64,000 nt of DNA, from positions 1-64,000 of the forward strand of contig NZ_JALKBY010000006.1 of the NCBI RefSeq assembly GCF_023223645.1. The letters run 5' to 3'. A model generated the notes under the pieces. The model was not told the origin of the DNA. It did no database searches and was given only the letters and a program-made list of their open reading frames with translations. Source of the DNA: Natroniella sulfidigena (GTDB taxonomy: Bacteria; Bacillota; Halanaerobiia; Halobacteroidales; Halobacteroidaceae). The position numbers and the translations under genes were made by a program. This document shows positions 6,080 to 42,244 of this stretch, piece by piece. How positions within the stretch are numbered: the first letter of the stretch is position 1; every line of letters starts with the position of its first letter.

Positions 6080-6319
6080 TTCAAATCCTCCTCTTCTTTG
6101 TTTCTTCATTATTATCTAAAGCCAAATAAACTTCCCCCTCAACTTTATTATATAAGATTATCATCTGGTAATCAACATTTTGTTTATTATTAATTATTAT
6201 GAGTTAATAAAATTAAATTATACGTTTACTAATAGATAATATTATTTTTAAGCTTTAAAGGTTCGAGAAAAATTAAAATAATTCTGACAAAAACGTGAGG
6301 GCCAACACTCAAAATAAAA

Positions 6320-6343
6320 ACTCTTATCCGCTAAGATAAGAGT
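6320..6343 (-). terminator. intrinsic terminator (repeated type)
   Basis: The same ACTCTTATC/GATAAGAGT hairpin as at 1374. Read leftwards it is followed by a T-rich run. It lies 20 bases after the stop of the YdjM-like gene and about 10 bases from a GGGCCAAC octamer. Confidence 0.7.
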
Positions 6344-6363
6344 CTACTACTTAAAATCTTATA

Positions 6364-6837
6364 TTACCAAATCATCGGAGCAATTATAATTATAGATATT
6401 ATTAAGACTATACTGAATAATATCTCAGCAGTACTATTAGTCTTAATTAATCTTAATCCATACTTCGTCTTATCAGGGTAGAAAAAATTGACACCACTAA
6501 CTGTAAGTGAATCAGCTAATAAGTGACTAAAGTATCCTATCGCAAAATAGATAGTATAATCTATAGATAAATAATTTCTTGTTAGCAAAAAGAAAATCAG
6601 GCTAAATAAAGATAGGCCTAATAATGAATGAGTAAACCCTCTATGTTTACATAAAAAACTTATTATCTTAGGAAGTATTGGAACTCTTCTACTTAACCAA
6701 CTCTTAGGATGATCTAAATCAGGTATTAATGCAGCAAACCAAGCTACTATTAAAGGTAGAGGATCATTTAACCCTGCTATTAACATATATAATAATGATA
6801 AGACTATCCCTGTTAAACCATGGGTTTTATAAGTCAT
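6364..6837 (-). CDS. YdjM-family membrane-bound metal-dependent hydrolase
   Basis: A 157-residue membrane protein with about four hydrophobic segments. It carries the conserved histidines of the YdjM/DUF457 family: THGLTG near the start, LIPDLDHP (about residue 40), KHRGFTHSLLG, and FSHLLADSLT. Family members are predicted inner-membrane hydrolases, and the E. coli gene is SOS-controlled. The start is the ATG at 6837, after AGGAGGAATCT, not the upstream in-frame codon. A terminator follows immediately. Confidence 0.8.
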   Translation of the reverse strand: MTYKTHGLTGIVLSLLYMLIAGLNDPLPLIVAWFAALIPDLDHPKSWLSRRVPILPKIISFLCKHRGFTHSLLGLSLFSLIFFLLTRNYLSIDYTIYFAIGYFSHLLADSLTVSGVNFFYPDKTKYGLRLIKTNSTAEILFSIVLIISIIIIAPMIW

Positions 6838-13320: not shown

Positions 13321-16227
13321 TCAACTCTTATCTCCTAACTTACGATTTACATCTCCTCTTAATAACTGTAAATTATCAATTCTACTCTTCCCGCCTTCAC
13401 ACATTGGAATGATATGATCTACTTCAAAAGGTAGCGTAGACTTACTTTTATATCCTGTTTGAGCACAAATATAATACCCATCTTTATCTTGTGACTTTTC
13501 ATAAACTTCCCCTCTTAATTTTCTCCAAACTCTTTCATCCTTCTTTCTTATTTCAGACAAGGATAAATCTTCAAACTTAATTAAATCTGGTATCACTTCT
13601 ACTTCCTGAGAAGGTTCCTTAGGTGGTCGAGCAATATTTTCTATTTCTATATTTAGCTGCCTAATAAAATACTCTTTATTATAATTAAACAACACCTGCC
13701 AGAAGTTATTTTTTTCCTCCCATAATTGATCTTCATAGTCTGTTTTCTCTTTTCCTCCTATACTATTCTCATATATATAACGAGCTTCCTTAGATAAGTC
13801 AAATTTATCTCTATCCTTTAACTCTAAAAATGATGGCTTTAATCCTTTAGAAGCATAATATCTCAAAACATCTTTAATATCATCAATTTTATATTCTAAA
13901 GTAAAATCTTGACCTATAAAATATTCTTTCTCAACTATCTGGCATAAATTATTTAATTCTTCAGATGATAATTCCTCATGATCAACTAAGTTGTAGATTT
14001 GAAACAACTCTTCTAAGTCATCAATAAAATTACCGTAAGCTTCTTTCATATCATCATAAATCAAAACTTCACAATTTTTCTCCATCTCTTCTCCAGAAGA
14101 ATCCTTAATTAATATAGAGAAAGTATATAAGCCTACTGGAATTCTTTCTAAGAAATTTATTCTTTCTAATCTACTAGTATCAACAGTCTGATCCATAATA
14201 CTAGCAAACTCTTCAATCTTTTCTATTGATACTAATCTCACTATTTTCTCTCTTGTCTTATTAGTCTGTTCACTAAAATCAATATTTTCTTCAAGATATA
14301 ACTTCTCTGGGTTTACCCAATTAATCTTATCTTTCCACTCATCAATAAAGCTAACAATATATGCTTCTTTAGTTCCACCAGCTTTGGTTCCTCTTAAAGC
14401 TCGTCCAATCATTTGAGTCATCAAAATAGTTGATATTGTAGGTCGGGCTAAAAACACAGTCTGAACATTAGGCAAATCCACACCTTCAGTTAAAATTTCT
14501 ACATTAACTAATACATCAACTTCTCCTTTTCTAAATCGTTCAACCTTCTTTTTATTCTCTTCAGAAGAAATTTGAACATTATGTGTAGCATCTCTAATAC
14601 TTGAAACAATATATTCTGAAGCAATACCTCTATTATTAAAGAGTTTATTTAAAGTTATAGCATGATTAATATCAACACTAAAAACTAGTAGTTTACCATA
14701 TTTTTCTTTATTTTTTACATAATGATCTACAATTATTTTATTACGCTTTTTACTACCTGCAATCTTTTTAGCAATATCAGTCTTTAGCTGAGATGATTTT
14801 ATACTTTCCATATCTTTAGGTGTTAACTCATTATATACATCTAATTTAGTACTCTGTTCTTTAAAGATTGGAGCAGATAAAATACCTCGATTAATTAATT
14901 GCTTTAAATCAACTTTATATAATACATCATCTTTAAATACCTTTTTTAATAATCCTTTTTCATCTTCAAAAGTTCTAAAAGGGGTAGCTGTTAATCCTAA
15001 TAAACTAAACTTATCTACATTATCTTCAAGTCCGTCTATTATTCTACGATAAGTCTTAGCAGTTGCATGATGAGCTTCATCTATTACTAAAAATACCTCA
15101 TCTAAGTCTTTAGCCCAATTGTCAATTACATAATTCATACTACGATATAAACTATCCTTACTAGCAATGATAAAATCATCATTATTTTGAATATTAACTG
15201 GTCGATCATGCTGACCAGAAATAATACGATAACGAAACTCTTTACGTTTAGTCAATAGATCGGAATAAGCGTTATTCTTTAATGCATTATAGGCTTGATT
15301 TAGTAATTCATGTCTATGGGCAATCCACAGTACCTTCTTTTTTTTGTTGATTACATTCTTCAATAGCCACTGTATAGCTGTTAAAGTTTTTCCACCACCT
15401 GTAGGAATAGCTAGCACGCCAGAAAATGAACCTTTCTTTCTAAACTTGTTATTAATAGCTTTAATTGCTTCTTCTTGATGAAAATATAGTTCAAATGGGC
15501 TGTTAGCTTTATTGACTTTAATTCTTCCAGCATAATCACTTTTAATTTGTTGAGCATTCTTTTCTATTTTAGCTCTTCCAGTCTCACTAACCTTAATTTT
15601 AAAAGTTACTAATTCATCATAAGAGAAATTATTTAAATCAGCCCTATTTTCCGCAGTATCTTCTACAATAATATTATACTTATTAAGATAATGATTAATT
15701 GCATTCAATAACTTTGTACTACTTCTTTTATATCCAAATTTCTTTATAAAACTTCTAAATTTAATTTTTCCCCACTTTACCTCTTTAGCCTTAAGATTTT
15801 TTTGTAAATTTGAAACTACCTTTTCCACTCCCTCATTAAAATTACCAGCTCTTACATCTTGCTGAATTAGATTTATTCTCTTTTTAAGCCAATTTCCTCT
15901 ATTATCCCCTGCTTCTTTAAATTGAAATGTTAAACGTTGGTGTTCTGGTAGGTTATTTAAATAATTTAAATAATCTTTTTCTTTTAAAGTAGAACCATAA
16001 TCGATAAGTTGTAATTTATGCTTATCTAGCAGCTTAATTAATAATTTAAAAACCTTCTCTCTATCAACCTGATTATTAAAACGAGACCATATCTTCTCTA
16101 ACTTTAAAGTAGTAATTCCAGAATTATATTCATTCACTATATCGTTTAACTTACTCTTTATTTCTAAAACAATTTTTTCTACTTGCTTTTCTAATATATC
16201 TTCTAAAAGTTCACTTGTAACTGACAT
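13321..16227 (-). CDS. superfamily 2 helicase with C-terminal HNH nuclease
   Basis: A 968-residue protein. The N-terminal 230 residues are helical and unassigned. A type III restriction/DEAD-like helicase follows: Walker A AIPTGGGKT (about 275-283), VIDEAHHA, GLTATPFR, and motif VI MIGRALRG. The last 60 residues form an HNH domain (CAQTGYKS ... EVDHIIPMCEGGKSRIDNLQ). This pairing of DNA translocation with a nuclease fits a single-protein restriction or anti-phage effector. I cannot assign it to a named system. It sits between CRISPR arrays 1 and 2 with its own ribosome site (AAGGAGTGTTGTAG). Confidence 0.8.
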   Translation of the reverse strand: MSVTSELLEDILEKQVEKIVLEIKSKLNDIVNEYNSGITTLKLEKIWSRFNNQVDREKVFKLLIKLLDKHKLQLIDYGSTLKEKDYLNYLNNLPEHQRLTFQFKEAGDNRGNWLKKRINLIQQDVRAGNFNEGVEKVVSNLQKNLKAKEVKWGKIKFRSFIKKFGYKRSSTKLLNAINHYLNKYNIIVEDTAENRADLNNFSYDELVTFKIKVSETGRAKIEKNAQQIKSDYAGRIKVNKANSPFELYFHQEEAIKAINNKFRKKGSFSGVLAIPTGGGKTLTAIQWLLKNVINKKKKVLWIAHRHELLNQAYNALKNNAYSDLLTKRKEFRYRIISGQHDRPVNIQNNDDFIIASKDSLYRSMNYVIDNWAKDLDEVFLVIDEAHHATAKTYRRIIDGLEDNVDKFSLLGLTATPFRTFEDEKGLLKKVFKDDVLYKVDLKQLINRGILSAPIFKEQSTKLDVYNELTPKDMESIKSSQLKTDIAKKIAGSKKRNKIIVDHYVKNKEKYGKLLVFSVDINHAITLNKLFNNRGIASEYIVSSIRDATHNVQISSEENKKKVERFRKGEVDVLVNVEILTEGVDLPNVQTVFLARPTISTILMTQMIGRALRGTKAGGTKEAYIVSFIDEWKDKINWVNPEKLYLEENIDFSEQTNKTREKIVRLVSIEKIEEFASIMDQTVDTSRLERINFLERIPVGLYTFSILIKDSSGEEMEKNCEVLIYDDMKEAYGNFIDDLEELFQIYNLVDHEELSSEELNNLCQIVEKEYFIGQDFTLEYKIDDIKDVLRYYASKGLKPSFLELKDRDKFDLSKEARYIYENSIGGKEKTDYEDQLWEEKNNFWQVLFNYNKEYFIRQLNIEIENIARPPKEPSQEVEVIPDLIKFEDLSLSEIRKKDERVWRKLRGEVYEKSQDKDGYYICAQTGYKSKSTLPFEVDHIIPMCEGGKSRIDNLQLLRGDVNRKLGDKS

Positions 16228-16382
16228 CTACAACACTCCTTATTATTTGTAAACTTTACTTGTTAGTCATATAAACTTATTCAATTATCATTCTCTCAAG
16301 AAGCCTATTAGAAATTCATTAATTTTGACTTCCTCTTTCAAATGAACAACTAATTTCATTATAACTATTCTCTATTCATTGC

Positions 16383-17747
16383 CCTTTTGTCTCCTACTTA
16401 ACGGAGTAGTGGTTGTAACGAGATATCTATTGATGGGATCGTTGGCCCGCAGACATCTTTCAGTCTCCTAGATTGCGGAGTATTGATTGTAACTTTGAAG
16501 TTGGAATAGATAGCTTACATTGTGAAGTCTTTCAGTCTCCTAGATTGCGGAGTATTGATTGTAACATATCATTTTTGAGGAGGAATATCAATGACTCATT
16601 CTTTCAGTCTCCTAGTTAACGGAGTATTGATTGTAACTTGCAGGAGCTGATTAAAGAGTGTAGATCCTTTCTTGGCTTTCAGTCTCCTAGTTAACGGAGT
16701 ATTGATTGTAACAAGAGCGTTAGGATACGAATATACAGAGGTAACAGAAGCTTTCAGTCTCCTAGTTAACGGAGTATTGATTGTAACATAGAATCCAAAT
16801 TGGATGAGTTTATGCGTAGAATGCTTTCAGTCTCCTAGTTAACGGAGTATTGATTGTAACTAAGTTATTATTGGTGTTTGTGATAATAGCTTTTTTTCTT
16901 TCAGTCTCCTAGTTAACGGAGTATTGATTGTAACGAAGATATGGGAGCAGGAAAGCCAACGAGGATAATCTTTCAGTCTCCTAGTTAACGGAGTATTGAT
17001 TGTAACTAGAGCAAATCAAATCTGAATATGAGGAATATAAGGAACCTTTCAGTCTCCTAGTTAACGGAGTATTGATTGTAACGACTTGTGCCATCTATCA
17101 ATCTCATTAGCAGACACATCCTTTCAGTCTCCTAGTTAACGGAGTATTGATTGTAACTATAGGTTGCAGGTGTGACATGATACATGAGGTAACGCTTTCA
17201 GTCTCCTAGTTAACGGAGTATTGATTGTAACTAACACACCTATTGGCAAGCCTATGGAAATGGAAGACTTTCAGTCTCCTAGTTAACGGAGTATTGATTG
17301 TAACTCTACATCGGTGTCAACTACTCTTCCTGCTGCTTGCAACTTTCAGTCTCCTAGTTAACGGAGTATTGATTGTAACTATTAAAATAGACGAAGAAAC
17401 AAGAAGTTATGATGACTTTCAGTCTCCTAGTTAACGGAGTATTGATTGTAACCCTGGATACTTTGCCTGGTAAGGTAATACTAGATACTTTCAGTCTCCT
17501 AGTTAACGGAGTATTGATTGTAACTGATATGTCGCCTTCCTCGAACTGCTGCTGAACTTGCTCTTCTTTCAGTCTCCTAGTTAACGGAGTATTGATTGTA
17601 ACTCAAAACGAGAGAAATAACACAGCTATGGCTATTTTCTTTCAGTCTCCTAGTTAACGGAGTATTGATTGTAACTATACAAGATAGGCTCCTGGGAGCA
17701 ATTAAGAAAGCTTTCAGTCTCCTAGTTAACGGAGTATTGATTGTAAC
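16383..17747 (-). CRISPR. CRISPR array 2: 19 repeats, 18 spacers
   Basis: Nineteen 37-bp repeats with 35-38 bp spacers. Sixteen carry CTAGTTAACGGAGTATTGATT; the second and third have GATTGCGGAG instead, and the first (16383) is degenerate. Leader at the right end, leftward transcription, stem CTCC/GGAG in the crRNA sense and an ACTGAAAG 5' handle. The longest and most uniform array here, so probably the most active. Its oldest spacer (16420-16456) contains the octamer GTTGGCCC. Confidence 0.98.
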
Positions 17748-17875
17748 CGCGAAATTTCAATATCCTCGATCCTATGATAGCAGGCTTTATACCACTTCCC
17801 TTCTTGTAAATTTCCTCTAAATTTTCGCAAACCAAATCTTGTATAAAAACCCAGGGGGTTTGCGAAACCTTAATC
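17748..17875 (-). promoter_or_regulatory. leader of CRISPR array 2
   Basis: Shares CGCGAAATTTC, TCGATCCTATGATAGC and the 9-bp inverted repeat TTTCGCAAA (17823-17831) ... TTTGCGAAA (17859-17867) with the other leaders; spacing between arms is again 27 bp. An additional TTTGCGAAA half-site lies at 17962-17970, close to the end of cas6. Confidence 0.85.
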
Positions 17876-18038: not shown

Positions 18039-19001
18039 TTATCTCTCATTAGGTAAAATCTTATACTCCCCTAAGCCAAAAACAGTATTCTTACCCACAT
18101 GAATATACTGTCCTAAGATTAAATAAGGCAGAAACTTCTCTAAATCTCCTTCATATTTAAGCTCACCTACTACTCCCTTCATCTTAACTCTCTTCTTCTG
18201 TTTATTCGAGTATCGCTTCCAACTCTGCCAGCTTCCGTTATTCTCAATCAAATCCACTTCTTCTGCTTGATCCAAATGAGCTCCAAATTTAATATCCAAC
18301 CTTTCAGCTCCATAAAAGGCACTCAAACTGGATAAGCGGCGAAATAAGTTCCTCATTAAAATATGAAACTCTATCTGCTCAACATAATCCCCTTTGTATT
18401 TCAAAAGTGTTGGAGTCAGCAATTTTAAATGTAGTTGTTGCTTTCCTAAATTACTCTTTAATTTATCAACATCCTGATTATCAATCTTAATCTCGGAATT
18501 ATGAACTAAATTAGCGTACTCAGAATAGAGCCTTTCAGCTTTTCCTGTTAGATCATTAACGCTCCAGATCTCAGATAAGACAAACTTTCCTCTTCCCAGT
18601 CCAATTCCTTTTTGCTCCAACAACCGCCAACTCTCAATAATATAAGGTAAGAACCGACTAGTATAACCAAATAGGTTCAAGTTGAAGTTGATCTGTTGGC
18701 CCGGCTTAAAGAGTTCTTGACCATTCGTCTTAGGTTCAAAAACAAATGGGCGTGGCTTATTATTGAAGCGATTAGAAGTTTTTCTCTTTTCTCTCTCAGT
18801 CAAAAAAGGATTAAACAATAATGAGTAAGCACAATTATAACTCAAATTACACCTTTCGCACTTTTCCTCTTTCATATTACAAGCTATTTGGTACAAAGCT
18901 TGACCAAAAGCACCCCGCAAAGTAGATCCGGGATGCTCTGGAAGCTTTATTTTTTGCTTTGCTATTAAAGTAAACCTTAAACTTATAATCTCTAATTCCA
19001 T
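18039..19001 (-). CDS. cas6: Cas6 pre-crRNA endoribonuclease
   Basis: A 320-residue RAMP protein of the PF10040 type. It has the N-terminal PGSTLRGAFGQALY segment, a Cys cluster (CERCNLSYNCAY), and a C-terminal glycine-rich loop (GKNTVFGLGEYK). Cas6 cleaves the repeat RNA 8 bases before the spacer to give the 5' handle, here ACTGAAAG. The in-frame ATG at 19016 overlaps the cas5 stop, but the ATG at 19001 follows GGAGGCTTTTATT and is the likelier start. Last gene of the cas3-8-7-5-6 operon. Confidence 0.9.
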   Translation of the reverse strand: MELEIISLRFTLIAKQKIKLPEHPGSTLRGAFGQALYQIACNMKEEKCERCNLSYNCAYSLLFNPFLTEREKRKTSNRFNNKPRPFVFEPKTNGQELFKPGQQINFNLNLFGYTSRFLPYIIESWRLLEQKGIGLGRGKFVLSEIWSVNDLTGKAERLYSEYANLVHNSEIKIDNQDVDKLKSNLGKQQLHLKLLTPTLLKYKGDYVEQIEFHILMRNLFRRLSSLSAFYGAERLDIKFGAHLDQAEEVDLIENNGSWQSWKRYSNKQKKRVKMKGVVGELKYEGDLEKFLPYLILGQYIHVGKNTVFGLGEYKILPNER

Positions 19002-19015
19002 AATAAAAGCCTCCA

Positions 19016-19696
19016 TTAATTATTACATATTTGATAATACTGATAACCTTCTCCTGATAAAACTTTTTCTAGATTAACTAAAAAGATTCTTTCATTATCT
19101 TTTCTTGTTAATTTTTCATCACTATTATAAATATTGATTGCTTCAAAAGTAGCTTCAGGAGGAATATCCTCAGTAAATTGTACAATTGAGTTACTTCCTA
19201 GCTGAATATTTTCTTCTCCCATTAACTTTAAGTAACCATCATCTAGAACTTCCATTTCTTTAAAAGATCTAAACTGCATAAAAGAACCTTTTTTACCGAA
19301 ATAATTAATTCTAATAAATAGCTTCTTTAAAAGTTCTACCTTTTCATCTTCTAAATTATCAATATCTATAGCTACCTTTAAGCTTCCTTCTAAATGCACA
19401 TATTCTCTATAAGCAGGTTTAGACCTACCAGTTTTATTTCTTAAGTCATTAATTCTCCCGAAAGTCTTATTGACTACTGCTTCCTGTGGTAATTTAAATC
19501 TAATCTCTCTTTCCTTGATAACTTCAAATACTTCTCTTCCTTTTTCAAGATCATATTCCTGAATTGCCCGAGAAACCAATCCCATCTTGACTCCAAAAGG
19601 AGTAGGCAGCAAAAGCGAAGTAGCAGCTGTATTGGTAGCATTGATATTCTTAAAAGAGAATAAAGAAGTCGGTAGATACTCAACCCCTAACCACAT
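19016..19696 (-). CDS. cas5: Cas5 subunit of the type I effector complex
   Basis: A 226-residue RAMP-fold protein. The N-terminus (MWLGVEYLPTSLFSFKN ... SLLLPTPFGVKMGLVSRAI) matches Cas5 proteins of subtype I-A. Cas5 caps the 5' handle of the crRNA and contacts the large subunit. It is somewhat short but complete. Preceded by GGAGGGGATTTA. It lies between cas7 and cas6, the standard effector-operon position. Confidence 0.8.
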   Translation of the reverse strand: MWLGVEYLPTSLFSFKNINATNTAATSLLLPTPFGVKMGLVSRAIQEYDLEKGREVFEVIKEREIRFKLPQEAVVNKTFGRINDLRNKTGRSKPAYREYVHLEGSLKVAIDIDNLEDEKVELLKKLFIRINYFGKKGSFMQFRSFKEMEVLDDGYLKLMGEENIQLGSNSIVQFTEDIPPEATFEAINIYNSDEKLTRKDNERIFLVNLEKVLSGEGYQYYQICNN

Positions 19697-19717
19697 TAAA
19701 TCCCCTCCTTGACTTCA

Positions 19718-20674
19718 TTATTCTTGGACACCATAAGGACTTGTCTCTTGAATAATATCTTTAATTATAGCACAAAATTCGGCCATTGAATTAAACTCTT
19801 TTAGTTCTACCTCTTCACCAATTGTATTTAATGTCTCTGCAATAGATCCAATCTCTTCTTTATAGTTTTTATTTAATGCGCTAATTGTTGGAGCAGGTAC
19901 CGAACTATAGCTGATACTTACTACTCCCTCAAAGCTTGTCATATGGGGTGCCTGAGTATTTCTCATTGCTCCTTCTGGTGAATAATAAGTCAACATAATA
20001 GACTTCAATAAAGCTTTGTATCTAGCTTCTATTTCTTCTTCACTCAAAACAAATTCTTTAGATATATCATTATAACCAATTCTAGCAACCTCTAAATTAT
20101 TAACGATAGCATACTGTCCAGAATTAACAGGTCGATAAAAGATATTTTGTCCTTCATTCTTACCAGTACCTTCACTCTTTTCTAAATCGGAATACTTAAC
20201 ATGGAATAAATTTTCTGAATTAAACTCCTCTGGAATAGCAACTAACCACCCAAATTCTACAGTAGAATCACGCCCCACATTCTTTTTATTATTCGTTACT
20301 AAAATCCCTTCTGTATCATCCAACGTACACATTTCTAACATTTTATCTACTATATCACTCTTAGTATTATCACTATTACCTGTAAATTCATCAAACTCAT
20401 CATCAATAGTGATCCGATTAGCATCAAACTTTTCACACCCTTGGCATAAAGGTAATTCCTCATCCTCTTTAGCTATCTTAAACAAATGACTAGACTGAAT
20501 ATGCTTCAACATATCCCCCGATACTGCATTAACAGTTGCTAAATTTCCTGCCTTATCTGTAATAGTAACATTTCTAGTTGTTAATTGATTTCCTTCTGAC
20601 TTTTCATTATTTAAATCATGTAGATTCAATCCCACCTTACCATTAATTGAAATAGAATATACTCTCTTACTCAT
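19718..20674 (-). CDS. cas7: Cas7 backbone subunit (DevR/Csa2 family)
   Basis: A 318-residue protein of the DevR/Csa2 family, with the N-terminal SKRVYSISINGKVGLNLHDL strand and the later EGAMRNTQAPHMTSFEGVV segment. Multiple copies bind the spacer part of crRNA in the type I complex. The start is the second ATG (20674), spaced 9 bases from GGAGG; it overlaps the end of cas8 by 8 bases, pointing to coupled translation. Confidence 0.9.
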   Translation of the reverse strand: MSKRVYSISINGKVGLNLHDLNNEKSEGNQLTTRNVTITDKAGNLATVNAVSGDMLKHIQSSHLFKIAKEDEELPLCQGCEKFDANRITIDDEFDEFTGNSDNTKSDIVDKMLEMCTLDDTEGILVTNNKKNVGRDSTVEFGWLVAIPEEFNSENLFHVKYSDLEKSEGTGKNEGQNIFYRPVNSGQYAIVNNLEVARIGYNDISKEFVLSEEEIEARYKALLKSIMLTYYSPEGAMRNTQAPHMTSFEGVVSISYSSVPAPTISALNKNYKEEIGSIAETLNTIGEEVELKEFNSMAEFCAIIKDIIQETSPYGVQE

Positions 20675-22532
20675 TAGTATCATCCTCCTTGATTTCTTCT
20701 ACTTTATCATCCTTGCCAAACCCATAAGCTAAAAGCATATTTCCGATAATCTTAGAATCGTGCTTATCAATCAATTCTACAACCTGCTCAAAATCAGTCG
20801 TAGTAAGATTAGATCTACTCTGTTTATTATGATGGAAACTTTCTAAACCATTCTCATTATTATAATCTGCCATGAATTCTGATAACTTAGTAAGTAAAGT
20901 ATCTTTGTTAAGAGCTGCCCTTCTTAAATCCTGTAATAATCCAAACTTAATCTTCTTCTTTTGATTAAGATAAACTGGCACTAAGGTACTATTTCTAATT
21001 GCTTTAGCAAAGCTTTTAAACCCTTCATTCTCCAATATACTTGAGTAGCTTGCATCATTAATATTCTCCAATTTACACATGATAAATTTCACACTCCTTT
21101 TGGTATAAATCTTTGCTGGTTCATCATTACCAAGTCTCTGCATAGCCAAAATTGCGTGTTGATAATAATAATTCAACAAATAGTCTACTCTCTCAGTAGT
21201 CAGAAAGTTATATAATTCCTGAAAGATTTTAATATCCTCATTCTTATCATCGATCGGTTTGATTAAATCAATAAACTCTTGAAAAACCTCTTTAAACTCT
21301 GTTTTATCTTTTTCTTCATCTAAAATAACCCAGTTAGGTATATTCAAATCGTAAATATTTTTTATGACATGGTTTTGGCCCATATCAACCAAATAAACAT
21401 TCTTTAATCCTCTAATATAATTATTTAACCTCTTCCTCTTTCTACGTCTTCTTCCTGCTTTGAATTCTTCTAACTTATCTAGCAGTTTTGAAATGAAATC
21501 ACTTAAATATAAAATATTCTGCTTTTCTAAAATCTCCGCCGGATAATAATTGGGCTCTATCTCCGAGTAAAGATCATCAAAATCATCCAATATTACTTGC
21601 TGTGGATCAATTACTGAGTATAACCTATTACCTGAGTTTAATGATTTTAAAATAAAAGATTCATAAAAACCGATTAAAATCAAAAACAATTTAACCCAAT
21701 TTTCAGTAGTATTTTTGGGAGAAATAATAGTACTAGCAGATAAATCATCAATATTCAAACCCTTAACTCTAATAGGCAACAAACAGCTTAAAGCATTATG
21801 ACTATTGGTGAAATCTATTTTAGCTTGATTATACAGATCCTTGATATTATCAATTATCTGCTCAGTAGTTTCAGATTCAGCTAAATTATTCTGAATAAAC
21901 TTCTTAACTTTATTCCTTTTACTCCAATGATAATTATCAAAACCAGCAAACAACTCATCCAGAGCTTCTTCTACTTTAGTTAACTCTTGCTTGGCTAACT
22001 CATCCTTGATTATCCTTTTAAAATTATTTATCTGAATCTCTTCAAATAATCTGTCTAACTTTTCAGCTAATAGATTATAATCTCTCTGTAACTCACTATA
22101 AAACTCCAAGATAGTTAACAATATGTCGCCAAAATAATTATTAATAGCATAAATATCATCCATTATCTTATTAGACAAGGGAACTCCTGTAGTCTGCCTG
22201 ATTAGAGTCGACTTTCTTTTGGCTGAAGACCAATCTTCATACTCCTCTTCTTCTGTAAAATCAATCACATCGCCAGTATATTCAGGTTTTTGATCCATCT
22301 TATCATAAAAAATAAGTGGATATAATGACTTAAACTTCAAATCTGTAAAATAATCCTTTTTTAGATCTTCACTAGACTCTATAACATAGAATACTTCTTG
22401 ATTCGTAATAGTAATCTGTGGTGTTTCAATCCCTTGTTTTTTTAAAATAAGATTAATTATCTCTGCTACACCCCTAGCAACTAAAATATCACTATAATCT
22501 CCTTCAACTTTGGGAACAAAAAACTTTTGCAT
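20667..22532 (-). CDS. cas8: divergent Cas8-like large subunit
   Basis: A 621-residue protein assigned as large subunit by position between cas3 and cas7. Sequence similarity to known Cas8 families is not obvious to me. It has an Arg/Lys-rich stretch near residue 375 (GRRRRKRKRL) and an acidic tail, and lacks a clear zinc finger. A Cas8 would recognise the PAM and recruit Cas3. There is no separate Csa5/Cas11 small-subunit gene in the operon, so the C-terminal part (about residues 500-610) might also be made alone from an internal start, as in some other type I systems; this is inference. Confidence 0.65.
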   Translation of the reverse strand: MQKFFVPKVEGDYSDILVARGVAEIINLILKKQGIETPQITITNQEVFYVIESSEDLKKDYFTDLKFKSLYPLIFYDKMDQKPEYTGDVIDFTEEEEYEDWSSAKRKSTLIRQTTGVPLSNKIMDDIYAINNYFGDILLTILEFYSELQRDYNLLAEKLDRLFEEIQINNFKRIIKDELAKQELTKVEEALDELFAGFDNYHWSKRNKVKKFIQNNLAESETTEQIIDNIKDLYNQAKIDFTNSHNALSCLLPIRVKGLNIDDLSASTIISPKNTTENWVKLFLILIGFYESFILKSLNSGNRLYSVIDPQQVILDDFDDLYSEIEPNYYPAEILEKQNILYLSDFISKLLDKLEEFKAGRRRRKRKRLNNYIRGLKNVYLVDMGQNHVIKNIYDLNIPNWVILDEEKDKTEFKEVFQEFIDLIKPIDDKNEDIKIFQELYNFLTTERVDYLLNYYYQHAILAMQRLGNDEPAKIYTKRSVKFIMCKLENINDASYSSILENEGFKSFAKAIRNSTLVPVYLNQKKKIKFGLLQDLRRAALNKDTLLTKLSEFMADYNNENGLESFHHNKQSRSNLTTTDFEQVVELIDKHDSKIIGNMLLAYGFGKDDKVEEIKEDDTNE

Positions 22533-22549: not shown

Positions 22550-24910
22550 TTAATCACCCTCATTCAACTTTTTAGTTGCCCTTTGATCAGACAACCTTAA
22601 CAACCTTACCAATAGGTAATAAAATAAGTAATCATTAACTGATCTGATTCTTAAATCATCAGAAATATTTTCTGCTATTTTCTGTTCTAGATATAGCTCA
22701 TCTAAATTAGCATTTATAAATTCTGCTAAACCTTTATTAGTAAATATATCTCCACTCACCTCTTCCAAATATCTTTTTACCTCAGTAGAAAGTTTAAATT
22801 TATTAGTTTCAGAAACATTTAAAGAGTGATGAGACACCAGTGTTTTAGCAATGATTTCTACAATAATATCTTCTTTATCAAGATATTCAATTACAAAATT
22901 CTCTAATAAATTTAATACAACCCAAAAGCTTTCTGCAGCATGACTGGGCGGTTTCTTAATCCTTTCAGCATGAGCTACAAATTCATGTTTCTTTCTCACA
23001 TGGGCCAACTGCCAATCCTCCTGCAACTTACCCAAATCATGAGCCCAGATAGTAAATTCAACTATATCCCTAAAATCTTGATCACTCAAATCAAACTCTT
23101 CCTTGATTAAATTAATTAAACGGCTTATCTCCTCTTCTAATTCAGGCAATTCCTCTTTCATTCTCTCTATATGTTCTAAATAACTCTCTTCTTTGTACTC
23201 TTGATTATATGGTTCCCTATTCTCACTAGGTAAAGAATCAAACTCCTTTCCTGACTGATTAAATAATAATCCTCTCTCTTGATCATAGGCAAAATACTCT
23301 GGATTGAGAATATATAGATTATTAGGATAAATATTATCTGCCTCTATAGCTCGATAAGTATATTTAACCTCACTATCATCTGCTCTCTCTATTACTTCTT
23401 TAATCAACCAATCATCTGTTTCATCTCTTATCTCTTTAACTTTTTTACGTAATGTCCAAGGCGAGAGGCTCAGACTTTCAAAATTATAAGGAGAACATTT
23501 ATCCAATACCCAGGAATGAATTATTATATTACAACCGACTACATCTCTTATCAAATCCTTAAACTTCTTCTTATCTGGTAGTTTCCAACTCTCTTTAATA
23601 AATTTATTCCTTGTTCCTTCTACTCTTTGGTTGGCTTTAGCATCAATATCTGTCTCTTCGCTATAGACTCTATCTATTATCTTTTGAGAAAGCTCAGCAG
23701 TCAAAACTTCCCCATCAATCTCTCTTAAAGCTTCAAAGGTCTTCAAAGTTGCCTCTTCATTATAAGGTAAATACTTCATATCTCCTTCATTCAAGACATC
23801 ATAGACATAAACTTTCCCTTTTTGATTTTGATATCTAGCACAACGACCAATTCTTTGAAGAAAAGAATCTATTGTAGAGATCTCAGTGTGCATAATATCA
23901 GAAGTAATGTCAATTCCAACCTCTATTACCTGTGTAGACACCAATATTACATTGCTCTCATCATTATCTTTAGAAAACTTATCCTTTATCTTAGCCTCTT
24001 TTTCTTTTCTATCCTTATCTAAAAACCTAGAGTGAATCAAGAAGAGATCTATATCTTCTTCCTCTGCTTCAATTTTAGTCTTTAAGTCTTGATAGATCTG
24101 TTGAGCATTATCTACTCGATTACACATCACTATACTCTTTTTAGAAATATTATCTATTTGATTATGTAATTCAACTATTTTTTCTGCATCTAATTTCTCA
24201 TCACTAGCAAAAATTCTTCTTTCTTTACCTTTTTGAGTTACTATATCCTCTAGGTAATCTCCACTATCTGCCCTAATTACTCTAGCATCTAACTTTTCTT
24301 TAAGTAATCCTATCTTCTCTTCTGAGATAGTAGCAGTCATAATACAAAATGGAACTTTATCCTTTAATTTTTCCAACATTAAGACAGTAGTAGTATAAGA
24401 AGCTTCTAAATCAAATAAATGAAACTCATCAAAGATTAAATAAGAAGATAATACTGCTCCTACATTAATATTTCCTAATCTATTCGATAAAGATATCGGC
24501 ATACTCAAAGCTGATGATAAGCTTTGATCAAAGGTTGTAAAGATAATATCCCCATTAAAGTATCTATCTTCTTTTCTTTCTCCAGTTTGAATTGTTACTT
24601 GGTAATCATTATTAAAATCACCCTGATTAATTTCCTCATAAATATCATTATATAAACTATTAACTAGAGTTCTTCGAGGAGTAGAATAGATCAATTTCTT
24701 TGGGAAATACATGTTCTCCTCATTAGCAATGATAAAAGGCATAATTGAAGCTAACGTCTTTCCCGCTCCAGTTGGTGCTTGCAAGATAACATTTTCTCCA
24801 TTCAAAATCGCTTCTGCTACTTCTTGTTGATAAAGAAAAGGTTTAAAACCTTGGATTTCCTCTCCACTTTTAGTTTTTAAATAATAGTTACTAATTCTAT
24901 GTTGTGTCAT
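22550..24910 (-). CDS. cas3: Cas3 helicase-nuclease, domains in helicase-HD order
   Basis: A 786-residue protein. The SF2 helicase comes first: QAPTGAGKT (44-52), DEFH (161-164), and motif VI IGRCARYQ. The HD nuclease is at the C-terminus: HDLGK (624-628), PSHAAES (about 655), SHH (about 693), and a final Asp near 775. Usual fused Cas3 proteins have HD first. Subtype I-A systems encode helicase and HD separately, so this looks like a fusion of adjacent cas3' and cas3''. It unwinds and degrades target DNA. First gene of its operon, with a promoter at 24957-24985. Confidence 0.93.
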   Translation of the reverse strand: MTQHRISNYYLKTKSGEEIQGFKPFLYQQEVAEAILNGENVILQAPTGAGKTLASIMPFIIANEENMYFPKKLIYSTPRRTLVNSLYNDIYEEINQGDFNNDYQVTIQTGERKEDRYFNGDIIFTTFDQSLSSALSMPISLSNRLGNINVGAVLSSYLIFDEFHLFDLEASYTTTVLMLEKLKDKVPFCIMTATISEEKIGLLKEKLDARVIRADSGDYLEDIVTQKGKERRIFASDEKLDAEKIVELHNQIDNISKKSIVMCNRVDNAQQIYQDLKTKIEAEEEDIDLFLIHSRFLDKDRKEKEAKIKDKFSKDNDESNVILVSTQVIEVGIDITSDIMHTEISTIDSFLQRIGRCARYQNQKGKVYVYDVLNEGDMKYLPYNEEATLKTFEALREIDGEVLTAELSQKIIDRVYSEETDIDAKANQRVEGTRNKFIKESWKLPDKKKFKDLIRDVVGCNIIIHSWVLDKCSPYNFESLSLSPWTLRKKVKEIRDETDDWLIKEVIERADDSEVKYTYRAIEADNIYPNNLYILNPEYFAYDQERGLLFNQSGKEFDSLPSENREPYNQEYKEESYLEHIERMKEELPELEEEISRLINLIKEEFDLSDQDFRDIVEFTIWAHDLGKLQEDWQLAHVRKKHEFVAHAERIKKPPSHAAESFWVVLNLLENFVIEYLDKEDIIVEIIAKTLVSHHSLNVSETNKFKLSTEVKRYLEEVSGDIFTNKGLAEFINANLDELYLEQKIAENISDDLRIRSVNDYLFYYLLVRLLRLSDQRATKKLNEGD

Positions 24911-24939
24911 ACATCACCCCTTTCTATTAATCTTTTCCT

Positions 24940-24985
24940 TGAGTGTGTATATTATTATAATACTATAATGAATTTAAAATTTCAA
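24940..24985 (-). promoter_or_regulatory. promoter of the cas3-cas8-cas7-cas5-cas6 operon
   Basis: Read leftwards: TTGAAA (24980-24985), 17 bases, TATTAT (24957-24962), with an overlapping TATAAT 3 bases further. The presumed transcription start and the -10 overlap the 14-base segment (24944-24957) that recurs in the pseudo-spacer of the small RNA at 25052-25177. On the opposite strand the segment is preceded by CCT. Confidence 0.6.
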
Positions 24986-25015
24986 GGAAGATTAATAATT
25001 TTCCTAAAAAGTTTA

Positions 25016-25045
25016 TTGACAAAATACTATTTTGAATGTTATATT
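25016..25045 (+). promoter_or_regulatory. rightward promoter of the crRNA-like RNA
   Basis: TTGACA (25016-25021), 18 bases, TATATT (25040-25045). This is the best sigma-A-type promoter in the intergenic region and faces away from cas3, towards the partial CRISPR repeats. Confidence 0.7.
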
Positions 25046-25051
25046 TAAACT

Positions 25052-25177
25052 AGAAAATTTAAAATCCCCAATATATAGGGAACTGAAATTGAGTTGTGTA
25101 TATTATTAGAATAACTAATTTACTCCGTTAAGTAGGAGACTGAAAGTTCTAGAGAAGTTAATTTCTCTAGAACTTTT
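25052..25177 (+). ncRNA. crRNA-like regulatory RNA (CreR-type candidate)
   Basis: In order: a degenerate first repeat (stem TCCC/GGGA, 25065-25081, and handle ACTGAAAT, 25082-25089); a pseudo-spacer from 25090 (TGAGTTGTGTATATTATTAG); a second partial repeat, 25121-25146, identical over 26 bases to the 3' part of array repeats and ending ACTGAAAG; and a 14-bp terminator hairpin, 25143-25176. The pseudo-spacer shares TGAGT, then after one extra T, 13 further bases with the cas3 promoter at 24940-24957, where the preceding bases are CCT, a CCN motif as in type I-A PAMs. Known CreR/CreA RNAs have this repeat-spacer-repeat layout and guide the Cas complex to repress promoters. Function here is inference. 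Confidence 0.6.
25143..25176. terminator. bidirectional terminator
   Basis: Perfect 14-bp stem AAAGTTCTAGAGAA/TTCTCTAGAACTTT with a 6-base loop. Rightwards it ends the crRNA-like RNA (CTTTTC); leftwards it lies 2 bases after the stop of the WYL regulator gene. The second partial CRISPR repeat runs directly into it. Confidence 0.75.
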
Positions 25178-26149
25178 CTATTTATAAACCTCCCCCATCT
25201 TCTTAACCTCAGCTTTGATCTCCTCTCTTAAACTCTTAGGCTCAATCACCTCAGCATCAGCACCATATTTCAAAATCCAACCCTTAATCTCATTAAAACC
25301 ACAGCTTACAAAACTCATTATGATACTTCCATCCTCCAACTCCTCAATCTCTTGAGTTCGATGATGATTACTCTCCTTCATCCACCTTGCTAAATCACCA
25401 CTGAATTTAACCTTGACCTTAATATCCTCTTCTCCACGCATTATCCCCCATGAATTTCCTAAATACTGCTTTAATGAAAATTCTTCTGGATACTTAAATT
25501 TATTAGCAGTAACCTCAATCTCCCTGATCCTATCTATTCTAAAAACCCTAACCTCCTCTCGTTTATGGCAATAAGCAATTAAATAGATAAATCCCTTCTT
25601 AAGATTTAAAATATAAGGCGATACAGTCCGTTCACTAACCTTATTTCCAGTATGGCTATAGTACTTTATCCAAAGATTGCTTTCTTCTCTAATAGCATCA
25701 TTTAACAAATTAAAAACTTCTCCATGCTTCTCATAATCAACTAATGTATTTAAGCTAAAATGAATTCGATCTTCTAATTGACTTAACATCTCCCGTGTCT
25801 TATCCGGTAAAGAAGCCATCAGCTTAGCAATTGCCATATTCATCTCCTTAAAATAAGGCAGATCACTATTACTTAAAATGCTATTTCCACCAACCACCAG
25901 GGCCAACGCCTCAGAAATAGTCAAGTTGGGCGGAGTCATATGATAATCTTCTCTAATCTTATATCCTCCTGCTTTTTGATCATAATCTATTGGTATATCT
26001 GCCTTTTCAAGTTCTTTTAAATACCGATAAAAGCTACTCTTCTTAATATCTAAAATATCCATGATATCTTGCCTGTCATATCTAGCATACTTTCCTTCAA
26101 CTAAACTGATCAACTTAATCAATCGCCAAACCTTTCCTGAAGTCCCCAT
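25178..26149 (-). CDS. WYL-domain transcriptional regulator of the CRISPR-Cas locus
   Basis: A 323-residue protein with an N-terminal winged helix-turn-helix (YDRQDIMDILDIKKSSFYRYLKELE) and a central WYL domain (IKYYSHTGNKVSERTVSPYI ... RVFRIDRIREIEV). WYL proteins sense ligands, often nucleic-acid derived, and several control CRISPR-Cas operons. It ends the cas1-cas2-cas4-csa1 block and lies just upstream of the cas3 promoter, so it probably controls one or both cas operons. Good ribosome site (GAAGGAGTTGGTGGC). Confidence 0.85.
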   Translation of the reverse strand: MGTSGKVWRLIKLISLVEGKYARYDRQDIMDILDIKKSSFYRYLKELEKADIPIDYDQKAGGYKIREDYHMTPPNLTISEALALVVGGNSILSNSDLPYFKEMNMAIAKLMASLPDKTREMLSQLEDRIHFSLNTLVDYEKHGEVFNLLNDAIREESNLWIKYYSHTGNKVSERTVSPYILNLKKGFIYLIAYCHKREEVRVFRIDRIREIEVTANKFKYPEEFSLKQYLGNSWGIMRGEEDIKVKVKFSGDLARWMKESNHHRTQEIEELEDGSIIMSFVSCGFNEIKGWILKYGADAEVIEPKSLREEIKAEVKKMGEVYK

Positions 26150-31655: not shown

Positions 31656-31701
31656 GGAGTTTGGAGTTGTTTTGTTGGCCAACAACTAAACCCAAAACAA
31701 T

Positions 31702-31743
31702 AAGGCAGTAGTACTGACACGCTCACTCAGTACCACTGGCCTT
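31702..31743 (-). repeat. dispersed hairpin repeat, copy 3
   Basis: Inner arms GTACTGA/TCAGTAC as in the other copies. The outer stem here is AAGGC-AGT/ACTGGCCTT, changed on both sides relative to GGGATAGT/ACTATCCC. It lies 42 bases after the gene at 31785 and may act as its terminator. Confidence 0.65.
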
Positions 31744-31784
31744 ATTAATCTAATAGTCTTAATTTTATACCTTCAGTTAATAGC

Positions 31785-32300: not shown

Positions 32301-32479
32301 AATTTATCTCCTCCTTTAATTTTATTCTATACTTATATTATAAGGTGGAAATATTAAGTAGCTATTAAGAAACTGATAAGATTCCTTTAAGTTTATTACC
32401 CCCACAAAAGTAATTACCACCAAAATCCCATCTCTATTCTTCAGACTGCCCAACACCCCAACACCATAAAAACATTAAA

Positions 32480-32518
32480 GGCTTGTAGTACTGACACAAC
32501 CACTCAGTACCACAAGCC
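32480..32518 (-). repeat. dispersed hairpin repeat, copy 4
   Basis: Outer stem GGCTTGT/ACAAGCC, inner arms GTACTGA-like/TCAGTAC. The outer stem differs on both sides from copies 1, 3 and 5 while pairing is kept. Within 32301-32812 this and the short frame at 32653 are the only things I see. Confidence 0.65.
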
Positions 32519-32652
32519 CTAATTTACCTATCCATTATGCTTAATAAAAATCTAAAAACTACCCTCATAAAATATTTCAGTTATCTTCTCCACTATTAAG
32601 TAATACATCAGATAATTTATCTTCATATGACTCTAACCGCTGTTATATTAAA

Positions 32653-35402: not shown

Positions 35403-35600
35403 GGGCCAACACCAAAAACAAAGGGATAGTAGTACTGACACAATCACTCAGTACCACTATCCCTAACTGCCGATAGCCCCGTTTCAGTCGCTCCAAGACA
35501 GCATAGCTACAAGCTGACTAAAGAACAAGTCCCTTCAGGGCTTATCAGCCCTTTCGTGAAGACCTCCGCTCTCAGCATCTATGCTGCTTTCCACTCCTTC
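35403..35600 (-). ncRNA. candidate structured RNA element, copy Y
   Basis: Partner of the element at 12222-12420, with conserved ends and a variable middle. Read leftwards: GGAGTGGAAAGCAGCATAG, several internal hairpins (GGGCTGATAAGCCC; AGCATAG...CTATGCT), TTGGAGCGACTGAAACGGGG, and the terminator-like hairpin 35423-35463 followed by TTTGTTTTTGG and GTTGGCCCG. No reading frame is shared between the copies. The rest of 35022-35719 shows nothing I can name. Confidence 0.4.
35423..35463 (-). repeat. dispersed hairpin repeat, copy 5
   Basis: GGGATAGT-A-GTACTGA / TCAGTAC-C-ACTATCCC around a 9-base loop. The most complete copy; in the leftward direction it is followed by a T-rich tail. Confidence 0.7.
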
Positions 35601-41125: not shown

Positions 41126-42244
41126 CTATCTATTAGCTAATTGTAGTTGTAAACCTTGTTGTAATATATTCTTACTAGCATTTATATCTCTATCGTGAAT
41201 TGAATGACACTTCGGACATTCCCATTCACGAACACTTAAAGCTTTGACCTTTTTATTTTGATATCCACATTCGCTACAAAGTTGACTTGAAGGGAAGAAT
41301 GTATCAATTTTAATTAATTCTCTACCATACCATTCAGCTTTATAGCTTAAATAGTCAACGAATTTAGACCAAGATACATCAGAGATACTTTTTGCTAGCC
41401 TAGAATTTTTAAGCATATTCTTAACTTTTAGGCTTTCAACTACTATCGTTTGGTTTTCACGAATTAATTTAGTTGAAAGTTTATGTAAGAAGTCTTTTCT
41501 AATATTAGCTACTTTCTCGTGTACTCTAGCTAATTTATTCTTTACTTTGCACCAATTATTTGAACCTTCTTCTTTCTTAGCAAGTCTTTTATTTAGTCTA
41601 GCAATCTTTTTTTCATATTTGGATAGAGTTCTAGGATTAGAAACCACTTCACCATTAGAGGTAATTAAAAAATCTTTCAAACCTAAGTCTATACCAATTG
41701 CTTTATCAATTTGAGGTAGTTCTTCTACTTCTTCTTGAACACATACAGAAATATAGTATTTGTGAGCTTTTGATTTTCTAATAGTTACATTTTGAATTTT
41801 ACCTGTAACTTCTCTAGATTTTCTAAATTTCACCCAACCAAGTTTGGGTAGTTTGATTTTATTATCTTTTATCTCAATGCTTTCAGTTCCACTAGAACGC
41901 TTGAAATATTGAGTTCTATAAGATTGCTTATTATTCTTTTTAGACTTGAATTTAGGAAAACCACCTAAACCCTTAAAGAAACACTTAAATGCTTTATCTA
42001 AATCTTTTAGAGATTGTTGTAAAGAAATGCTATCAACTTCTCTTAACCAAGTATATTCTTTCTTTAATTTGGGTAATTGTTTAGCAAATTTAGAATATGA
42101 CAAGTATTTATTGTCTTTAGATTGAGCTAGGAAGTGGTTAAACACAAACCGAACACAACCTATGTTTTTATTGATTAATTCCTCTTGCTCTTTATTAGGT
42201 ATAATTCTAAAACTATATGCTTTATCTACAATTTTGGTTTGCAT
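41126..42244 (-). CDS. tnpB: TnpB RNA-guided nuclease of the IS200/IS605 element
   Basis: A 372-residue protein with an N-terminal helix-turn-helix (YSFRIIPNKEQEELINKNIG), the RuvC motifs GIDLGLKDFL and VVESLKVKNM, and a zinc finger CSECGYQN ... CPKCHSIHDRDINAS containing the last catalytic Asp. It appears complete. TnpB cuts the empty donor site guided by omega RNA, favouring retention of the element. It lies 12 bases downstream of tnpA on the same strand. Confidence 0.95.
   Translation of the reverse strand: MQTKIVDKAYSFRIIPNKEQEELINKNIGCVRFVFNHFLAQSKDNKYLSYSKFAKQLPKLKKEYTWLREVDSISLQQSLKDLDKAFKCFFKGLGGFPKFKSKKNNKQSYRTQYFKRSSGTESIEIKDNKIKLPKLGWVKFRKSREVTGKIQNVTIRKSKAHKYYISVCVQEEVEELPQIDKAIGIDLGLKDFLITSNGEVVSNPRTLSKYEKKIARLNKRLAKKEEGSNNWCKVKNKLARVHEKVANIRKDFLHKLSTKLIRENQTIVVESLKVKNMLKNSRLAKSISDVSWSKFVDYLSYKAEWYGRELIKIDTFFPSSQLCSECGYQNKKVKALSVREWECPKCHSIHDRDINASKNILQQGLQLQLANR

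Follow-up and report, generated by a model that had tools for sequence, protein, structure and literature searches.

A probable CreR-type regulatory RNA gene beside the type I-A cas operon of Natroniella sulfidigena

Organization of the WYL–cas3 gap

We analysed a 64,000-nucleotide stretch of the Natroniella sulfidigena genome (positions 1 to 64,000 of contig NZ_JALKBY010000006.1, hereafter the window), in which a gene for a WYL-domain regulator and cas3, the first gene of a type I-A CRISPR-Cas operon, are separated by a gap. Read rightwards, this gap contains a promoter, a degenerate CRISPR repeat, a pseudo-spacer, a second repeat and a strong terminator, which together form a gene for a CRISPR RNA (crRNA)-like RNA with repeat-derived sequences outside a CRISPR array. 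The sequence comparisons described below make it very probable that the gene encodes a CreR-type, cas-regulating RNA, which would guide the effector of its own type I-A system to the cas3 promoter and thereby allow the cas operon to repress itself. The features of the locus are as follows (PAM, protospacer-adjacent motif; psiR1 and psiR2, the degenerate and the second repeat).

18039-22532, minus strand: cas8a, cas7a, cas5a and cas6, the effector genes downstream of cas3 (PADLOC Cas8a, Cas7a, Cas5a, Cas6)
22550-24910, minus strand: cas3, first gene of the putatively repressed operon (Cas3 families)
24937-24939, plus strand: CCT, the putative target PAM, directly before the target
24940-24957, plus strand: putative target (protospacer) in the cas3 promoter/start region, matching spacer positions 1-5 and 7-19
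24957-24985, minus strand: cas3 promoter, TTGAAA-17-TATTAT, best -10 call TATTAT at 24962-24957
25016-25045, plus strand: CreR promoter, TTGACA-18-TATATT, 11/12 consensus bases, TG before the -10
25052-25183, plus strand: predicted CreR transcript (crRNA-like RNA), from the promoter and terminator positions, start expected near 25052
25065-25089, plus strand: psiR1, stem TCCC/GGGA, 16/24 against the array repeat
25082-25089, plus strand: 8-nt handle of psiR1, ACTGAAAT
25090-25119, plus strand: pseudo-spacer (putative guide) of about 30 nt, TGAGTTGTGTATATTATTAGAATAACTAAT, matching the own cas3 promoter behind CCT
25120-25146, plus strand: psiR2, handle ACTGAAAG
25142-25181, plus strand: intrinsic terminator of the CreR gene, 16-pair stem at 25142-25177 and T tail
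25178-26149, minus strand: WYL-domain regulator adjoining the CreR gene (Pfam WYL and WCX)

The original prediction, made from the DNA letters alone, had described this repeat-spacer-repeat layout, which could be read directly in the gap; the promoter, both repeats, the pseudo-spacer and the terminator each lie at or within a few bases of where they had been placed. Its assignment of the system to type I-A agrees with the cas gene families, as PADLOC identified Cas8a, Cas5a and Cas7a downstream of cas3, together with Cas6, a Csa1-type Cas4, Cas4, Cas2 and Cas1. The identity of psiR2 to array repeats of its own contig spans 23-30 nt. In psiR1, the letters of the stem are changed from CTCC/GGAG in the array to TCCC/GGGA, and the four pairs are kept through paired changes. 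The fold of 25055-25183 was better than those of all 200 shuffled sequences (z = -4.3), with the terminator contributing most, and the region had three terminator-like sites against 0.1 expected in shuffles, 25142-25177 being by far the strongest (z = -5.1). An Rfam search returned no family at threshold and just chance-level microRNA-like matches.

The putative guide and its target in the cas3 promoter

When the guide was aligned within ±700 bp without requiring a PAM, the best alignment started at 24940 and consisted of TGAGT, one extra guide base and GTGTATATTATTA (13 nt), with CCT preceding it. The extra base can be placed equally well at position 5 or 6, because both are T. The original prediction had reported both a shared TGAGT (25090-25094 and 24940-24944) and 14 contiguous identical bases (25095-25108 and 24944-24957), and had read the CCT before the target as the CCN PAM of type I-A; all of these are present, and type I-A accepts CCT and CCA as PAM in vitro (PMC4005679). 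Its further claim that the match overlaps the -10 and the start of the cas3 promoter holds for the start region, which the 14-mer mainly covers, but the best -10 call is touched at just one base. The PAM sits downstream of the cas3 start site, and a Cascade footprint of about 36 bp counted from it would extend over the start site and the -10 into the -10/-35 spacer.

In 3000 dinucleotide shuffles of the spacer, the observed score was never reached within ±700 bp. Furthermore, eight loci provided 327 genuine array spacers, none of which scored 12 or more against its own promoter region when a CCN PAM was required (maximum 10.5); the window CreR scored 16.

CreA, the antitoxin RNA that guards the toxin of CreTA, shares the repeat-spacer(-repeat) layout and the partial pairing (PMC8501985, PMC9458426), so that the gene might encode such an antitoxin and not a cas regulator. 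However, the matched sequence is the cas3 promoter rather than that of a toxin. It lies about 40 nt before the cas3 start codon, with no small gene in between, and targets in the related loci described below likewise precede cas3, cas8 or, in our loci L048 and L054, a small first gene that lies ahead of cas3. A CreA-type function is thus extremely improbable.

Recurrence and pairing pattern in related type I-A loci

Searches with Cas8a and Cas7a in genomes of the same phylum supplied a set of type I-A loci; one contig search with Cas8a yielded two loci, one of them from the same genome as G006. The upstream region was readable in roughly 28 loci, ten of which (the window, L014, L040, L041, L048, L050, L054, L069, L072 and L095) had a repeat-like handle before the cas operon and a spacer partially matching the promoter of that operon, so that a putative guide to the own cas promoter is present in the window and nine further loci. 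L014 has the same arrangement in the same gap, on the strand opposite to cas3 and again with a TTGACA-18-TATATT promoter as read by eye; its guide is TATGTTATATGCATTAT, and CCT-TATGTTATATGTATTAT stands in the cas3 promoter of the same locus. The guide of L040, ATTATTATTTATATTTA, faces CCA-ATTAT-ATTTATATTTA in the promoter, giving five matches, one extra guide base and 11 matches. L041, L048, L069 and L072 provided four more guide-target pairs, L095 was the seventh relative, with TCT as its PAM, and L050 and L054 turned up in a scan that left positions 6 and 12 unscored. The best target within ±700 bp, with no PAM required, was preceded by CCN in 7/7 loci compared, a flank that would suit the cognate effector. 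Matches in L073 and L093 were rejected as an inverted repeat and a simple repeat, respectively.

In a 7x7 matrix of spacers against promoters, scores were high on the diagonal only, indicating that each guide fits its own promoter alone. Guides and promoter motifs differ among these seven loci, and the pseudo-spacer has changed along with the promoter. This is the opposite of what the original prediction had named as damaging to it, namely relatives that keep the promoter motif and lack the repeats. The same results bear on its main alternative, a duplicated operator of the WYL regulator; the 18-nt sequence common to spacer and promoter would be that operator, and the repeats would be remnants. 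The WYL regulator is indeed adjacent, a WYL homologue adjoins cas3 in many relatives with CreR, and two copies of an AT-rich motif in one gap would suit an operator. Such an operator, however, predicts a conserved motif whose position does not depend on the distance from the handle, and neither holds. The shared sequence differs in each of the seven loci, one copy always begins right after a repeat handle and the other right after a CCN/TCN PAM, the mismatches keep a 6-nt register counted from the handle, and the two copies have opposite orientations in L041, L048, L050, L072 and L095, making a duplicated operator very unlikely.

Orientation and distance of guide and target differ among loci, and L041, L048, L069 and L072 show, as read by eye, just one clear repeat, and the helix that closes it also serves as the terminator; rearrangement of the copies has therefore spared the guide-target match. 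The helix in these four loci is long and pairs sequence upstream of or inside the repeat region with the 3' end.

A decayed or newborn CRISPR mini-array, with an accidentally self-matching spacer and no function, could also leave degenerate repeats in the gap, and some type I-A gaps, such as that of L045, do have repeat pairs with no detectable target. On the other hand, CreR has its own promoter and terminator, paired changes preserve the psiR1 stem, the spacer-target match is found in ten loci of independent sequence, and not one of the 327 array spacers behaves likewise; we consider a functionless mini-array hardly credible. In L045 (G168:C48:189000-208900, positions 6150-6250, minus strand), the two repeat-like elements, ..GAGGACTGAAAG and ..AAGGGGACTGAATT, flank a guide in the WYL–cas3 gap; this guide found no convincing target in the search, and the element is perhaps a CreR for another promoter. 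L016 has a three-repeat mini-array directly upstream of the WYL gene (6197-6394), whose spacers gave no match to the WYL/cas3 promoter region. One of them, AAAAATAAATTAAG, has a 14-nt match after CCC at L016:4431, upstream of a cardiolipin-synthase-like gene, which is A-rich and probably due to chance.

The pairing pattern was counted over the ten loci. Pairing was complete at positions 1-3, 7-10 and 13-16 (10/10 each), whereas it was 9/10 at position 4, 7/10 at 5, 4/10 at 6, 8/10 at 11, 5/10 at 12, 9/10 at 17 and 4/10 at 18. Mismatches up to position 16 thus fall at 4-6 and 11-12, and pairing at positions 18-30 averages 25%, as expected by chance. Six loci were found with plain scoring, and their nine mismatches were all at 5, 6, 11 or 12 (permutation P = 2e-5 for this 6-nt phase and 4e-4 for any phase). 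Note that this test covers neither the two bulged loci (the window and L040) nor L050 and L054, which are unusable as evidence of periodicity because their scoring ignored positions 6 and 12.

This pattern fits how a Class 1 effector reads its guide. Class 1 effectors flip out every sixth guide base (PMC11127173, a review; PMC5904413), and position 6 matters less in E. coli (PMC5904413). Moreover, a protospacer matching positions 1-18 only was fully bound by E. coli Cascade, with no interference or cutting and no priming (PMC5904413). Since the natural pairs agree with both reports, they look shaped for stable binding without cutting; pairing is at background after position 17, and the target would be expected to survive. 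We regard the pattern as the strongest evidence on mechanism, because it is not what one would expect of operator duplication or of an antisense RNA. The one-base offset at position 6, which the original prediction had named as its weak point, recurs at the same position in L040, and other loci have mismatches at 5/6 and 11/12. It is conceivable, though we hold this only tentatively, that the guide bulge at 5/6, seen in two families (the window and L040), is a selected adjustment, in which the type I-A effector would accept a target with no base opposite the flipped-out sixth nucleotide, and register-shifted pairing stopping at about 17 pairs would set a bound-not-cut state on the own promoter.

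Several observations weigh against a CreR-type function. Phage protospacers for the array at 16359-17800, sought in order to obtain the PAM independently, gave no match, and no published precedent was found for a one-base bulge, as distinct from a mismatch, at position 6. The close relatives L013, L016 and L017 are without CreR, their WYL–cas3 gaps being about 20 bp, under 5 bp and about 120 bp, respectively. In addition, permuted-handle controls across 34 loci gave occasional chance pairs with scores up to 14.5, and L041, L050, L054 and L095 are individually less certain for this reason; the window, L014, L040, L048, L069 and L072 stand better on their own.

Proposed mode of action and known systems

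In the CreR-type autoregulation that we favour, CreR would be transcribed rightwards from about 25052, away from cas3, and cleavage by Cas6 at psiR1 would release a crRNA-like RNA that has the 5' handle ACUGAAAU (a 5'-ACUGAAAU(UGAGUUGUG...) species). This RNA would be loaded into the Cas5a-Cas7a-Cas8a effector and direct the complex to CCT-TGAGTGTGTATATTATTA, where the cas3 operon starts, with guide base 5/6 looped out. Because pairing is largely confined to spacer positions 1-19, the effector would remain bound and block RNA polymerase, and the full R-loop required for cutting by Cas3 would not be made. The predicted outcome is autorepression of cas3-cas8-cas7-cas5-cas6, which may be lifted once the effector is taken up by array crRNAs or an anti-CRISPR, an idea taken from work on CreR (PMC12737573, PMC13131331).

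CreR RNAs, reported for types I-B, I-E and V-A, are likewise crRNA-like RNAs from a mini-CRISPR beside the cas operon, with a partial match to the cognate cas promoter and proposed autorepression (reviewed in PMC12737573, PMC13131331). Unlike in those reports, the system here is type I-A, four related loci lack a second clear repeat and have a terminator helix that closes the one they carry, and 2/10 loci have an extra guide base at position 5/6. As in CreA of the haloarchaeal type I-B CreTA, there are two degenerate repeats, psiR1 being more diverged than psiR2 (PMC9458426), and CreA RNA pairs at positions 1-5 and 7-11 next to the PAM (PMC8501985); however, CreA represses a toxin and uses a TTC PAM, whereas the RNA here faces cas3 and a CCN PAM. 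The pairing extent in the ten loci is the same as that of E. coli type I-E Cascade on the 1-18 protospacer (PMC5904413), but that target was engineered, belongs to another subtype and is no natural regulator. Repeat-like RNAs outside an array also include the Racr RNA anti-CRISPRs (PMC10651486); the RNA gene here, in contrast, is chromosomal and within the cas locus, and its guide looks functional. No report joining CreR and type I-A was found in the literature searched, which leaves priority uncertain, as the primary CreR article was outside that search. That article is reportedly Liu et al., Cell Host and Microbe, 2023.

If borne out, these findings would add bacterial type I-A to the CRISPR-Cas systems with RNA-guided self-control. 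The ten natural pairs would represent an evolutionary footprint of a bound, non-cleaving complex (PAM, positions 1-5, 7-11 and 13-17, little beyond), so that the threshold between binding and cutting by a type I-A effector becomes directly testable, and they provide a compact rule for finding further such RNAs (handle, CCN/TCN and positions 1-5, 7-11 and 13-17).

Elsewhere in the window, a 968-amino-acid DEAD/ResIII helicase with an HNH nuclease domain (13321-16227, minus strand) is encoded beside the CRISPR arrays and is a possible defence gene. An intergenic element of about 55 nt occurs in three copies (31690-31744, 32467-32521 and 35411-35465; 67-80% identical to the first copy); its sequence, GTAGTACTGACAC...CTCAGTACCAC..., looks self-complementary (AGTACTGA...TCAGTACC). 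Finally, an IS605 OrfB/TnpB-type protein of 372 amino acids with a Cas12f1-like TNB domain is encoded at 41126-42244 on the minus strand.
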